Shown here piece after piece: positions 16,901-22,073 of a DNA stretch of 64,000 bases. The position numbers were made by a program, and so were the translations under genes. The stretch's first letter is position 1; the number at the start of each line of letters is the position of its first letter. The notes under the pieces are model-generated. The model searched no databases. It was not told where the DNA came from and worked only from the letters and a program-made list of their open reading frames with translations. The DNA is from Armatimonadota bacterium. GTDB taxonomy: Bacteria > Armatimonadota > Fervidibacteria > Fervidibacterales > Thermosaccharophagaceae. The stretch is taken from the NCBI GenBank assembly GCA_025062195.1, contig JANXAS010000018.1, positions 1-64,000 on the forward strand, in the 5' to 3' direction.

Positions 16901-17329
16901 TCACTCATCCCTCACTCGCTTAGCCAAATAGCGCTCTGCAAGAAGTATAGCAGCGTATTGGTCATATGGTTCCGGCGGAGTCTGAAGCGATATCGGGATA
17001 AGGCGACGCAAACCCTTCGGTGGATGCTCTTTAAAATATCTACGCCTTGCCTCAAGGGTTGTAAAACGCTCGTCAGCTACTACAACCAAATTTTTGTCAA
17101 TCCCAGCCCCTGCAATTCGCCTGACAAGCTCCCTTGAGCCAGTGCCGCTGCCAATGACGATGGCATCAGCACCAAACTCCTTGAACAGCCTCGGGATATA
17201 ACTTTCAACCTCATCTACACCAATGATACCACTCCACAGCACACCGCTCTTTTCTCCGACAACAGCTATGCCGCATTTTGCCTTCCCCGGATCTACACCT
17301 ATGACGATACGCTCATCACTTTGTGGCAT
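16901..17329 (-). CDS. YqgF/RuvX-like RNase H-fold protein
   Basis: About 142 residues with an RNase H-like resolvase fold. GVDPGKAKCGIAVV provides the first catalytic Asp, DERFTTLEARRRYF the central acidic motif, and DQYAAILLAERYL the last Asp. This fits the YqgF superfamily, whose best-known members process pre-16S rRNA, though this is a divergent branch and the substrate could differ. The ATG at 17329 has GAGGG 5 bases upstream; the frame extends to 17377. It follows the WecA-like/TagA fusion in the same direction and is likely co-transcribed. Confidence 0.72.
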   Translation of the reverse strand: MPQSDERIVIGVDPGKAKCGIAVVGEKSGVLWSGIIGVDEVESYIPRLFKEFGADAIVIGSGTGSRELVRRIAGAGIDKNLVVVADERFTTLEARRRYFKEHPPKGLRRLIPISLQTPPEPYDQYAAILLAERYLAKRVRDE

Positions 17330-17384
17330 CTTTTCCCTCACTGACTTGCCTCCCATATTTGCTGCTCGGAAGGTCATTCAACAC

Positions 17385-19205
17385 TCACAATCTCCTCACT
17401 ATAGCCTTAGCGACTTGTAACAGCAACTTAGGGATGGCGATCAAACGCTTGAAGCGATATGGCTCACGCAATGCACGATATAACCATTCCATGCAAATGT
17501 ATTGCACCCACTTTGGTGCTCGCTTTACCAAACCGGCATACACATCAAAGCTGCCACCAACGCCTATGCTCACAGGAACACCTATCTCGCTCATGTGCTT
17601 TGCGATCCACTTCTCCTGCTTCGGTATGCCCATTGCGACAAAAAGTATGTGAGGCTTGCTCTCCTTAATGATGCGCACGATGTCCCTTTCCTCATCATCA
17701 CTAAAGTAGCCATGATGCGTTCCAACAACCTGCAACCCGGGATGCATCTGCGATAGCCTCTTCGCAGCCAATTCAGCAACTCCGTTCTTCGCCCCGAGAA
17801 AAAACACCCTGTAGCCCTTTTCAGCTGCGAGCGCACACAGCCTATTCATAAGATCCACACCCGATATCCTTTGCGTTAAAACCTCGCCAAGTAGCCTCGC
17901 TGCCATGACCACACCAATCCCATCCGGTGTGACGAGGTCAGCACCCCTTAAGATGCGCTTAAACTCCTCATCCTCTTGAGCGCGCACAATGGCTGAAGTG
18001 TCCGCTGTGACGATCATATGCGGCGTGCCCTCGGATATGAACTGCATGATACGCTCAAGCGTTTGCTCCCAACCGAGCGTGCTTATCGGTATGCCGAGCA
18101 ATTCAATTGTTGAACGACTTGGCTGCCTCTGTGAGAGCAGCTTTGAGAGAGCGTAAATGAGTGCTACAGCGAAGAACCCAAGCGATAAGAGCACAAGCAG
18201 CTTAAGTGCAAAGTGTATCCGAACGAGCGCCACGAGTGCCATGGCAATGATACAGAGGTATGCGTTTGTGAGCACGAGGACGACCCATAACCTTCTCCCA
18301 ACGAGCCCTTCGCTGATGAGCAATTCAAACAGGCTCATCCTTTTAACTCCGCTCTTGGAAATGAGTGCATCACACAGGGCGCAGGTGACCTCAATGAACG
18401 GGATACCCAATGCCAGCACCGGGACAATTACGATGAGCAGGGCTGTGTTTTTAAGCGCCCCAGAAACACTTATTGCGCTGAGCAATATGCCGATGGAACT
18501 TGCTGTGGCAAATGTTGTCATTGCTTGTCCAAGCATCATCGCCCAAGGCAGAAGACCCATGCAAGCTCCAAATGTGATGCCAGATAGCAACATAGCCAAT
18601 GGTGTCATACGCTGCGGGAGAGCTGCTGCTGCAAATGAAAGCGTCAATGATGAAATAGCACCGATGCCCAAAGATAGGCACGGCACTCTCGCCGTCATTT
18701 GGAATGTGATTGTGAGAAGAGCCATCCAAGCAACGCTAAAAGGGATTGCAAAAAATCCCAACCCGACGAACTTGGTCGTCAAAGGGATCTTGACCACATC
18801 AAACGATATCCCAGAGAGCGCCAACAGTGTCGCACAGGTAGCGACAGCTATTAGACGCAACAGGACTGCAACCTTATGCATCCTCTTCGGAATCAGGACG
18901 ATGAGCCAACCGATAAATGTCAAAAGCACAATTGAGAGAATCAAAGTGAGCAAAATGTTAACTGATGCATTTGCCGGCTCAGCTCCGCTGAATGTGAGCA
19001 ACAAAGCTATCGGCGCTGCAAGTGAGAGGAGGGCTGCCAAGTCACCGCCAAATAATGTGAATCTGCGCTCACACAGCTTTTTCATGTGGATGGCATAAAC
19101 CAACCCGCCACACAAAAGAGCCAACATGAAAGATACACAACCGACAACGATGGCACTTTGCCATACCGCTTTCAATGCTGCCTGTGAGTGTATCTCTGGC
19201 AGCAT
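17385..19205 (-). CDS. Fusion: catalytically degenerate WecA/MraY-like membrane domain + WecG/TagA glycosyltransferase
   Basis: The 606-residue protein has two parts. Residues ~1-375 form 10-11 membrane helices that follow the polyprenyl-phosphate GlcNAc-1-phosphate transferase layout (GALKNTALL, PVLALGIPF and similar). The acidic motifs are gone: the DD motif reads IV, the NxxDGxxG region reads FQMTARVPCLS, the MGDSGS loop reads TTFATAS and the HHR loop is absent. Residues ~380-606 are a normal TagA/WecG domain: TADTSAIVRAQ, LVTPDGIGVV, GAKNGVAELAAKRL, VGTHHGYF, FVAMGIPKQEKWI and RAPKWVQY. It likely adds an acetamido sugar to a lipid-linked sugar, with the dead half as anchor or lipid-binding scaffold. 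Confidence 0.8.
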   Translation of the reverse strand: MLPEIHSQAALKAVWQSAIVVGCVSFMLALLCGGLVYAIHMKKLCERRFTLFGGDLAALLSLAAPIALLLTFSGAEPANASVNILLTLILSIVLLTFIGWLIVLIPKRMHKVAVLLRLIAVATCATLLALSGISFDVVKIPLTTKFVGLGFFAIPFSVAWMALLTITFQMTARVPCLSLGIGAISSLTLSFAAAALPQRMTPLAMLLSGITFGACMGLLPWAMMLGQAMTTFATASSIGILLSAISVSGALKNTALLIVIVPVLALGIPFIEVTCALCDALISKSGVKRMSLFELLISEGLVGRRLWVVLVLTNAYLCIIAMALVALVRIHFALKLLVLLSLGFFAVALIYALSKLLSQRQPSRSTIELLGIPISTLGWEQTLERIMQFISEGTPHMIVTADTSAIVRAQEDEEFKRILRGADLVTPDGIGVVMAARLLGEVLTQRISGVDLMNRLCALAAEKGYRVFFLGAKNGVAELAAKRLSQMHPGLQVVGTHHGYFSDDEERDIVRIIKESKPHILFVAMGIPKQEKWIAKHMSEIGVPVSIGVGGSFDVYAGLVKRAPKWVQYICMEWLYRALREPYRFKRLIAIPKLLLQVAKAIVRRL

Positions 19206-19235: not shown

Positions 19236-20498
<1,263 letters not shown>

Positions 20499-22073
20499 TC
20501 ACCTCCGCAACTTCCAGGTCGGTATTGGCGCACCATTCAATCGCCATTCCGGCTGAAGCTCAACAACGCCACCAACAACATTGTAAAGATGGCTATAAGC
20601 TTCGTATCGGAATGGCTCGCCATGCTTTGGGTTGCCACGAGTTGCAATGAAGTATTGCACACCCTTGAGGCGAAGATAATCGGCGAACCTGCCCTGCCCA
20701 AGATACTCCTGATATTCGTAGCTGTTTATCAGCCCATCAAGGTTAATGACTCGCCTCTGTGAATAGTAGCCTATGATTCCAGCATCCTCGGCAATGCAGA
20801 TTGCATCCGGCTCTGTGTTGTTCTTGAGCCACATGGCTTGCTCATATAATTTTCGCAATCCGACATGGCGTGAGGGCAAAGCCAACTTGTTGAAAGCGGC
20901 GAGCAAAACTAAAGCTGCGCACATTGCCACCAATGCAGCTATTCGTTTTGGATGATTAAAAGCGCCCAAAAGCGAAATTAGCGCTGGCAGGGTAAGTGAG
21001 GCGCTGCAAAGCGAGAGCGCAAAATACCACGGGAAGACACCCCAGTCCTGAAGGAAGGCGGTGTAGCATGCATGCAGCAACACATAGATGTTGAGCATAA
21101 GCAGTGGTGGATGGAACTGGCGCAGCCTACTGGAGGGCTTACTTAGCAGAGTCGCAGAAACGTATGCAACAGATGCAGCGAGAGATATTGCCATCCTTAC
21201 AATGACAGGCTTTATGAACAGGTGTCTTGGAATCAAAACAATGCTTGGTATGGTCATCTTCAGAGCACCGCTAATAGGCATCCAATGCCCAAAGTGAAAA
21301 CGATTCCATAGAAGGTAAATGCCAATCAAGAGCGCAAATGGGGCTGAGAATGAGGAAAGCTTCGCCAAGCTGAGCCGTCCCGCTCTAACTCCGAGGGCAA
21401 TGATAACGCATGCGTAGCTCACAAAAACGAAGGCTGCATCAAGCCTTGAAAGCGCAATTAAAGCGAGAAAGACTCCCCAGACAATGTCATCTACACTGAA
21501 CTTGCTTGGCTCAAAGATATGAGGGCGGGAAAGAGCAAAGGCAATCGCAATTAGCGAGACGAAGATGAGCAGATGACTCTCAAGGGCATAAAAACCAGCC
21601 AACCCAACAAAGACATAAAGCAGCAGCGGCGAAAGCAACGCTAAGCAAGTTGGGATATACTGACGCGCCAGTTCAAATGAAAGCCACATTGATGCCAACA
21701 TCAAAAGCACCTCAATGGACAGGACAACTCGCAATGGCAGCTCAACCCCATCAAAAAGCTTGTAAACGGGAACCAACACAAGCATCCAAAGCGGGTGATA
21801 GCCATTGGTTGGATTAATTCGGTCAAATGTTGAACCGCGCCCTGCAGCTATATTCAGAGCTGTGTTGAGGTAGTAATAGGCATCATCGGGTGTAAAACGC
21901 TCAATCACATAAGGGATTGGGCGCCACATCGCAAGCAGCAAAGGCAAGCAAAGGAAGGAAACAAAGGCTAATGCGGCGACTTTCTTAGTTGAGTGCAATT
22001 TATGCACACTGACCATCAAATACGGGCGCAGTGAACTGCCAGCTATAGCCGACAGCGGAATGCACCCTCCCAC
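20499..22073 (-). CDS. GT-C-type membrane glycosyltransferase-like protein
   Basis: 524 residues with about 10-12 membrane helices. The first loop carries FTPDDAYYYLNTALNIAAGRG followed by TNGYHPLW; the acidic pair in a first periplasmic loop is typical of GT-C enzymes (PMT/ArnT-like) that use polyprenyl-phosphate sugars. A soluble C-terminal region (INLDGLINSYEYQEYLGQGR) follows. The protein at 46805-48517 is a clear paralogue, with GDDACYYAAIAFNIANGNG, TNGFQPLW and VINLDGVVNGDAL. The acceptor is unknown. It sits directly upstream of ahcY; the pairing is probably positional rather than functional. Confidence 0.68.
   Translation of the reverse strand: MGGCIPLSAIAGSSLRPYLMVSVHKLHSTKKVAALAFVSFLCLPLLLAMWRPIPYVIERFTPDDAYYYLNTALNIAAGRGSTFDRINPTNGYHPLWMLVLVPVYKLFDGVELPLRVVLSIEVLLMLASMWLSFELARQYIPTCLALLSPLLLYVFVGLAGFYALESHLLIFVSLIAIAFALSRPHIFEPSKFSVDDIVWGVFLALIALSRLDAAFVFVSYACVIIALGVRAGRLSLAKLSSFSAPFALLIGIYLLWNRFHFGHWMPISGALKMTIPSIVLIPRHLFIKPVIVRMAISLAASVAYVSATLLSKPSSRLRQFHPPLLMLNIYVLLHACYTAFLQDWGVFPWYFALSLCSASLTLPALISLLGAFNHPKRIAALVAMCAALVLLAAFNKLALPSRHVGLRKLYEQAMWLKNNTEPDAICIAEDAGIIGYYSQRRVINLDGLINSYEYQEYLGQGRFADYLRLKGVQYFIATRGNPKHGEPFRYEAYSHLYNVVGGVVELQPEWRLNGAPIPTWKLRR

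Follow-up and report, generated by a model that had tools for sequence, protein, structure and literature searches.

Why would a bacterium keep a membrane domain that has the fold of a polyprenyl-phosphate sugar-1-phosphate transferase but none of that enzyme's catalytic-motif residues, and why should the domain be joined to a TagA-type glycosyltransferase whose own catalytic residues are all in place? The question is raised by a gene at 17385..19205 on the minus strand (606 amino acids; ATG at 19205, stop codon at 17385-17387) of the window, the 64,000-nucleotide stretch of DNA analysed here. An earlier note, made from the letters of the window, had described this open reading frame as a dead WecA/MraY-like domain fused to TagA; the frame is present, and all features of the gene given below lie on its minus strand. 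A genome search showed the fusion gene to be single-copy in its own genome, and a scan of genome contigs with the window protein returned distant TagAs and nothing closer.

Directly upstream lies ahcY, encoding S-adenosylhomocysteine hydrolase (19236..20492, minus strand), itself adjoined by a gene for a 524-residue multi-pass membrane protein (20499-22073, minus strand) that has no Pfam match and gives the impression, but only that, of a GT-C type glycosyltransferase. Seven bases downstream of the fusion is a RuvX/YqgF-like gene (16901..17377, minus strand), which scores 27.6 bits, just below the cut-off of 29.2, and whose position next to the fusion is not conserved in the stretches compared from other genomes.

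The two halves of the fusion protein

The C-terminal half (residues 364-606; 17388..18116) is a TagA/WecG (GT26) domain with a C-terminal appendage, as judged from Pfam, the match to a TagA of known structure and the model. It scores 228.6 bits against the TagA/WecG/CpsF profile PF03808 (cut-off 27.4), and residues 367-598 match residues 4-235 of T. italicus TagA (7mpk) ungapped with an E-value of 2e-60. In an AlphaFold2 model of the fusion, this half superposes on the TagA structure at Z 31. The offset of the ungapped 7mpk match was used to assign residue equivalences: Thr37, Asp65, Gln167, Arg214, Arg221 and Arg224 of TagA, among the catalytic and appendage residues defined for that enzyme (PMC6493773), correspond to Thr400, Asp428, Gln530, Arg577, Arg584 and Arg587. 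All are present, which bears out the earlier claim that the TagA half retains its motifs. Each of the six is retained in 56 or all 57 of the fusions, the equivalents of Thr37, Asp65, Gln167 and Arg221 being invariant, and the membrane-binding appendage is still hydrophobic. The likeness to the GT26 enzymes TagA/TarA, WecG and CpsF thus spans the whole domain, including catalytic and appendage residues. The difference is one of attachment: characterised TagA is a stand-alone peripheral membrane protein, whereas the TagA of the fusion is tethered to a dead PNPT that spans the membrane many times. Because the half scores below the TarA equivalog cut-off (196 bits against the 350 of NF041710), ManNAc is a candidate donor only.

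Two variations among the phylum's TagAs may be recorded here. At the positions equivalent to TagA 221 and 224 (584 and 587 in the window protein), fusions have Arg at both, whereas the separate TagAs of the phylum mostly have Lys (27 of 29), a difference that touches a catalytic appendage residue. In one family (f36), TagA has a single N-terminal transmembrane (TM) helix before the glycosyltransferase domain (L098, 377-1289, minus strand; L100, 101-1001, plus strand); it is possible that this is a reduced or a parallel form of the fusion.

The N-terminal half (residues 4-328; 18222..19196) has ten TM helices and was assigned as a PNPT-fold pseudo-WecA on fold, homology and motifs. In the window protein it has no Pfam match of its own, the PF00953 cut-off not being reached; the N-terminal half of a sister fusion (L076) passes that cut-off of 27 with 69.3 bits. 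It matches the intact WecA proteins of the phylum with E-values of about 1e-12 (2e-14 with blastp), and a profile built from the N-terminal halves of fusions retrieves the same WecAs with E-values down to 6e-47. The AlphaFold2 model, built on 21 sequences and weak for residues 1-90, has a mean pLDDT of 83.7. Its residues 4-328 superpose on MraY and DPAGT1 (Foldseek, VIA-align) at Z 22-26 over 273-308 residues with an rmsd of 3.4-4.3, the next unrelated matches standing at Z 7. The half thus has the ten-TM fold of the PNPT superfamily, and this fold, together with the profile match to WecA, rules out its placement in another membrane-protein family. The earlier note had taken the first ~375 residues to be PNPT-like; this holds for the kinship with WecA/MraY in both sequence and fold, but not for the boundary, which lies near residue 328, residues 332-357 being an extra TM helix. 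Around the break in TM9, Pro262 and Pro269 are kept in 54 and 57 of the 57 fusions, respectively, and Pro269 adjoins the PNPT lipid groove.

The active site is where the likeness to WecA, MraY and DPAGT1 (PF00953) ends. These enzymes share with the fusion the fold over residues 4-328, the TM9 break and, through the phylum's own WecA, homology, but they have catalytic Asp, Asn and His positions that the window protein has lost entirely. In a single alignment, comprising 57 distinct fusions together with 32 other PNPTs, 16 catalytic-motif positions were scored (DD, NxxDG, GDTG and HxHHR). The window protein keeps none of the 16 letters and the fusions keep 0-6; the other PNPTs keep 11-16, and in the window's own genome WecA (L033) keeps all 16 and MraY (L034) 14. 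So clean a separation on one alignment rules out chance or misaligned motifs. The DD position (residues 106-107; 18885..18890) reads Pro-Lys; its first Asp is lost in 56 of 57 fusions, while the second is still Asp in 38. The NxxDGxDG (residues 167-180; 18666..18707) and GDTG (about residues 224-236; 18498..18537) motifs are likewise lost, the Asp of GDTG surviving in one fusion out of 57. In the HxHHR loop (residues 286-302; 18300..18350), the third His is kept in no fusion and is Glu or Asp in 50 of 57 (Glu294 in the window protein). With the exception of this His, no constant substitute has appeared at the lost catalytic sites, nor do all fusions share any one set of polar residues where the active site used to be. 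The motifs have thus been replaced as the earlier note proposed, though not, as it also held, by neutral or hydrophobic residues throughout: Lys107 stands at the second Asp of DD and Glu294 at the third His. On this alignment, the N-terminal half is to be counted as a dead homologue of the PNPTs rather than as a WecA.

The survey of homologues for active and dead versions that the earlier note had called for found all 57 fusions read to be dead and none with an intact active site. Frames of ~600 residues with an intact PF00953 domain (L078-L084; families f3, f8, f16, f27 and f38) were considered as active fusions and rejected; they combine WecA with other membrane and CoA_binding_3/PglD-like parts and are not WecA-TagA proteins. 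Their WecA, with intact motifs (DD, NxxDNxDG, GDCG and HSHR), is fused to extra TM helices and, as Pfam shows for L078, to a CoA_binding_3/PglD-like domain. Joining the enzyme of the first step to that of a later step in the same lipid-linked pathway is familiar, for instance from monotopic PGTs. In such phosphoglycosyl transferase fusions, L078-L084 included, the PGT half is active or intact, whereas here it is dead in every case read.

Distribution, descent and selection

The fusion occurs in ~66 of 291 genomes of the phylum, spread over 21 of 45 families, and most of the other genomes have TagA alone. It is found on single-contig genomes too (G220, G222), which, with its recurrence in ~66 assemblies, rules out an assembly artefact. 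Among the matches listed, two other phyla (299 + 192 = 491 genomes) showed no fusion, and plasmids showed the TagA half alone, with no record spanning 80% of the query.

The dead N-terminal halves form one clade against all WecA/MraY sequences (SH-aLRT 99). The backbone of the TagA tree was unresolved, and a single origin of the fused TagAs was not rejected (p-AU 0.645). Immediately downstream of ahcY one finds fused as well as separate TagA genes, which therefore look like one locus. ahcY is the upstream neighbour of the fusion in many families and also lies next to separate TagA genes; altogether it stands immediately before TagA or the fusion at ~40 loci in many families of the phylum.

For pairs with >72% identity in TagA, dN/dS was 0.07-0.49 in the N-terminal half and 0.02-0.45 in TagA. 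The dead half is under purifying selection and is held less tightly than TagA. These values and the depth of the clade rule out a recent pseudogene. With its catalytic residues gone and its fold and purifying selection remaining, the half has the hallmarks of a pseudoenzyme, and it is a maintained one. The earlier view that it has been kept agrees with the dN/dS values, its fusion to an active-looking TagA and the separate intact WecA in the genome. We found no account of a dead WecA-TagA fusion in the open-access literature searched; the dead PNPT-GT26 fusion would be a new addition to the pseudoenzyme fusions, which are already known as a kind.

Most genomes with the fusion have two or more PF00953 enzymes. 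The window's own genome also encodes a member of the CsaB-type pyruvyl transferase family and SLH domains, suggesting that the pathway builds a pyruvylated secondary cell-wall polymer. Elsewhere in the phylum, the WecA-like enzymes of three families (f14, f17 and f24; L045, L046, L047, L048, also L153 and L155, in genomes G020, G038, G048, G016, G084 and G042) have altered motifs, with KxxDxxDGLDG for NxxNxxDGLDG and [GS]TVG or GTIG for GDTG, so that the Asp of GDTG is lost. DD and HHR mostly remain, each of these proteins is the only clearly WecA-like enzyme found, and MraY in the same genomes is intact. They have either a re-wired metal site or constitute a second, half-dead WecA.

Topology and the conserved face

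WecA and MraY have ten TM helices, an intracellular active site and both termini outside. Appended directly to the C-terminus of such a protein, a TagA domain would lie outside the cell, away from any UDP-sugar. The additional, eleventh TM helix (residues 332-357; 18135..18212), recognised from the model, from hydropathy and from a gap in the WecA rows of the alignment, would solve this problem by keeping TagA cytoplasmic. The helix is hydrophobic in all fusions (hydropathy 1.76-2.87), and Lys335 and Arg/Lys355 within it are conserved. The predicted cytoplasmic position of TagA rests on the model and hydropathy, with the topology carried over from MraY; the outer-face position of Phe288 on helix 9 of E. 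coli MraY (PMC11812184) agrees with that topology.

Conservation was compared loop by loop as relative entropy, from the intact set to the fusions, and a second weighting gave the same picture. Values fell in the cytoplasmic GDTG (2.97 to 1.01), NxxDG (2.64 to 1.34) and DD (1.88 to 0.85) loops, and rose in the periplasmic TM8-TM9 loop (1.56 to 2.70) and in the loop of the hairpin (1.52 to 1.71); with 2.56 to 2.06, the former HxHHR loop remains fairly well conserved. Periplasmic and cytoplasmic loops differed with a column-permutation p of 5e-5, a generous figure in that columns were treated as independent. The top conserved stretch of the dead half is the TM8-TM9 loop GALKNTAL (residues 249-256, consensus GxLKNTAF; 18438..18461). 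The periplasmic hairpin, with VKIPL (residues 135-149, consensus VKxPF...VxLG; 18759..18803), was found in the alignment and its strands in the model, and its Lys139 is fusion-specific. Other conserved windows are residues 287-294, 298-305, 135-142 (VKxPF) and 328-335. Lys139, Lys252, Lys335 and GxLKNTAF are all more conserved in fusions than in active WecA. As read from these alignments, constraint has moved: the cytoplasmic catalytic loops have become less conserved and the periplasmic loops have kept or gained conservation. Conservation on the periplasmic face, the eleventh helix and the C-terminal TagA, besides the lost active site, set the fusion apart from WecA, MraY and DPAGT1.

What the dead half may do

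Probably the dead half no longer acts as a catalyst and has been retained as a membrane platform or sensor. We envisage a fusion, probably a single event in an ancestor within the phylum, that placed a WecA-type polyprenyl-phosphate sugar-1-phosphate transferase ahead of TagA; the joined protein would have acquired an eleventh TM helix, by which TagA would stay cytoplasmic, and the WecA half would have lost catalysis completely. The separate intact WecA of the genome would make undecaprenyl-PP-GlcNAc, which the TagA half may extend by one sugar, ManNAc or a related one. The dead half would fix TagA in the bilayer where this putative acceptor is produced, its contacts most likely being those of a PNPT-style dimer, formed with a second copy of itself or with the intact WecA, and/or a bound polyprenyl lipid, with the periplasmic face as the working surface. 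MraY offers a precedent in that it dimerises via its N- and C-terminal helices, with C55 lipids in a cavity between the protomers on the outer side (PMC10914600, PMC9046198). Taken as a whole, this account of a one-time joining, an added helix, lost catalysis and a non-catalytic membrane platform for TagA seems to us reasonably probable. Against any need for a platform, TagA stands alone in most of the phylum's genomes, in many cases at the very same ahcY locus; the platform is therefore not needed for TagA chemistry as such. That the membrane-binding appendage of TagA is still hydrophobic in the fusions speaks in the same direction.

How much the dead half does beyond holding TagA in place is where the alternatives part. 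TagA is active only when it reaches the membrane (PMC6493773), and the f36 TagA, with its single TM helix, suggests that an anchor and nothing more can suffice. A dead half that merely holds TagA at the membrane, its fold drifting as far as the stability of a membrane protein allows, would also fit the loss of the catalytic sites without constant replacement (the third His excepted) and the faster evolution of the N-terminal half. Nevertheless, ten TM helices under purifying selection across 21 families make a costly anchor, and polar features far from TagA, namely Lys139, Lys252, Lys335 and GxLKNTAF, exceed active WecA in conservation, so that we consider simple anchoring unlikely. The earlier note had favoured a lipid-substrate scaffold, in which the retained PNPT groove binds undecaprenyl-PP-GlcNAc and passes its head group to TagA. 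The PNPT fold is intact in the model, the prolines at the TM9 break are kept, the old HxHHR loop is still conserved and has a new acidic residue, and MraY is known to bind lipid I, the product it makes (PMC9046198). The cytoplasmic loops lining the head-group site have, however, for the most part become less conserved, and it is the opposite face that is under the strongest constraint; the scaffold is a possibility, but a doubtful one. Since the conserved face is opposite to the TagA-substrate side, the sequences would favour a platform, and within that role the presentation of Und-PP-sugar would be no better favoured than dimerisation, docking to a partner or sensing at the outer face.

Sensing in its specific form would have the dead half bind the flipped lipid-linked product in a periplasmic dimer cavity and regulate TagA. 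The outer-face dimer cavity of MraY has been proposed to sense exported lipid II, and externalised lipid II to inhibit MraY (PMC10914600). The fusion shares the fold and is conserved on a face comparable to that of this cavity with its C55 lipids, and its conserved Lys335 comes just past the position of the MraY C-terminus, where Lys358 forms part of the lipid II cavity (PMC10914600). The MraY site regulates MraY's own active site, however, and the dead half has none; the match of Lys335 to the cavity is one of position alone, the ligand is hypothetical and signal transfer across to TagA speculative, making this reading quite improbable. Still less credence is due to the idea that the N-terminal half has kept or gained some catalysis through other residues. 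The second Asp of DD in 38 of 57 fusions and the acidic residue at the third His in 50 of 57 could be read that way, but there is no shared polar set at the old active site and the window protein has none of the 16 motif letters.

Returning to the non-catalytic platform, a more ambitious form of it can be offered tentatively: the dead PNPT might be a regulatory or docking subunit on TagA that pairs with active WecA, detects the lipid-linked product at the outer face and couples the second step to carrier supply and export. If so, the second step of a surface-glycan pathway would be tied to the supply and export of its lipid carrier across a branch of the phylum. The PNPT enzymes MraY, WecA and DPAGT1 are antibiotic and disease targets, and their fold might have a role other than catalysis, for example in dimer-based lipid sensing. 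In ~66 genomes, a PNPT fold without an active site, fused to the next enzyme and conserved mainly on its outer face, provides a natural separation of the fold from catalysis, and the fusion offers a physical means of studying how substrate passes from the first step of lipid-linked glycan synthesis to the second.
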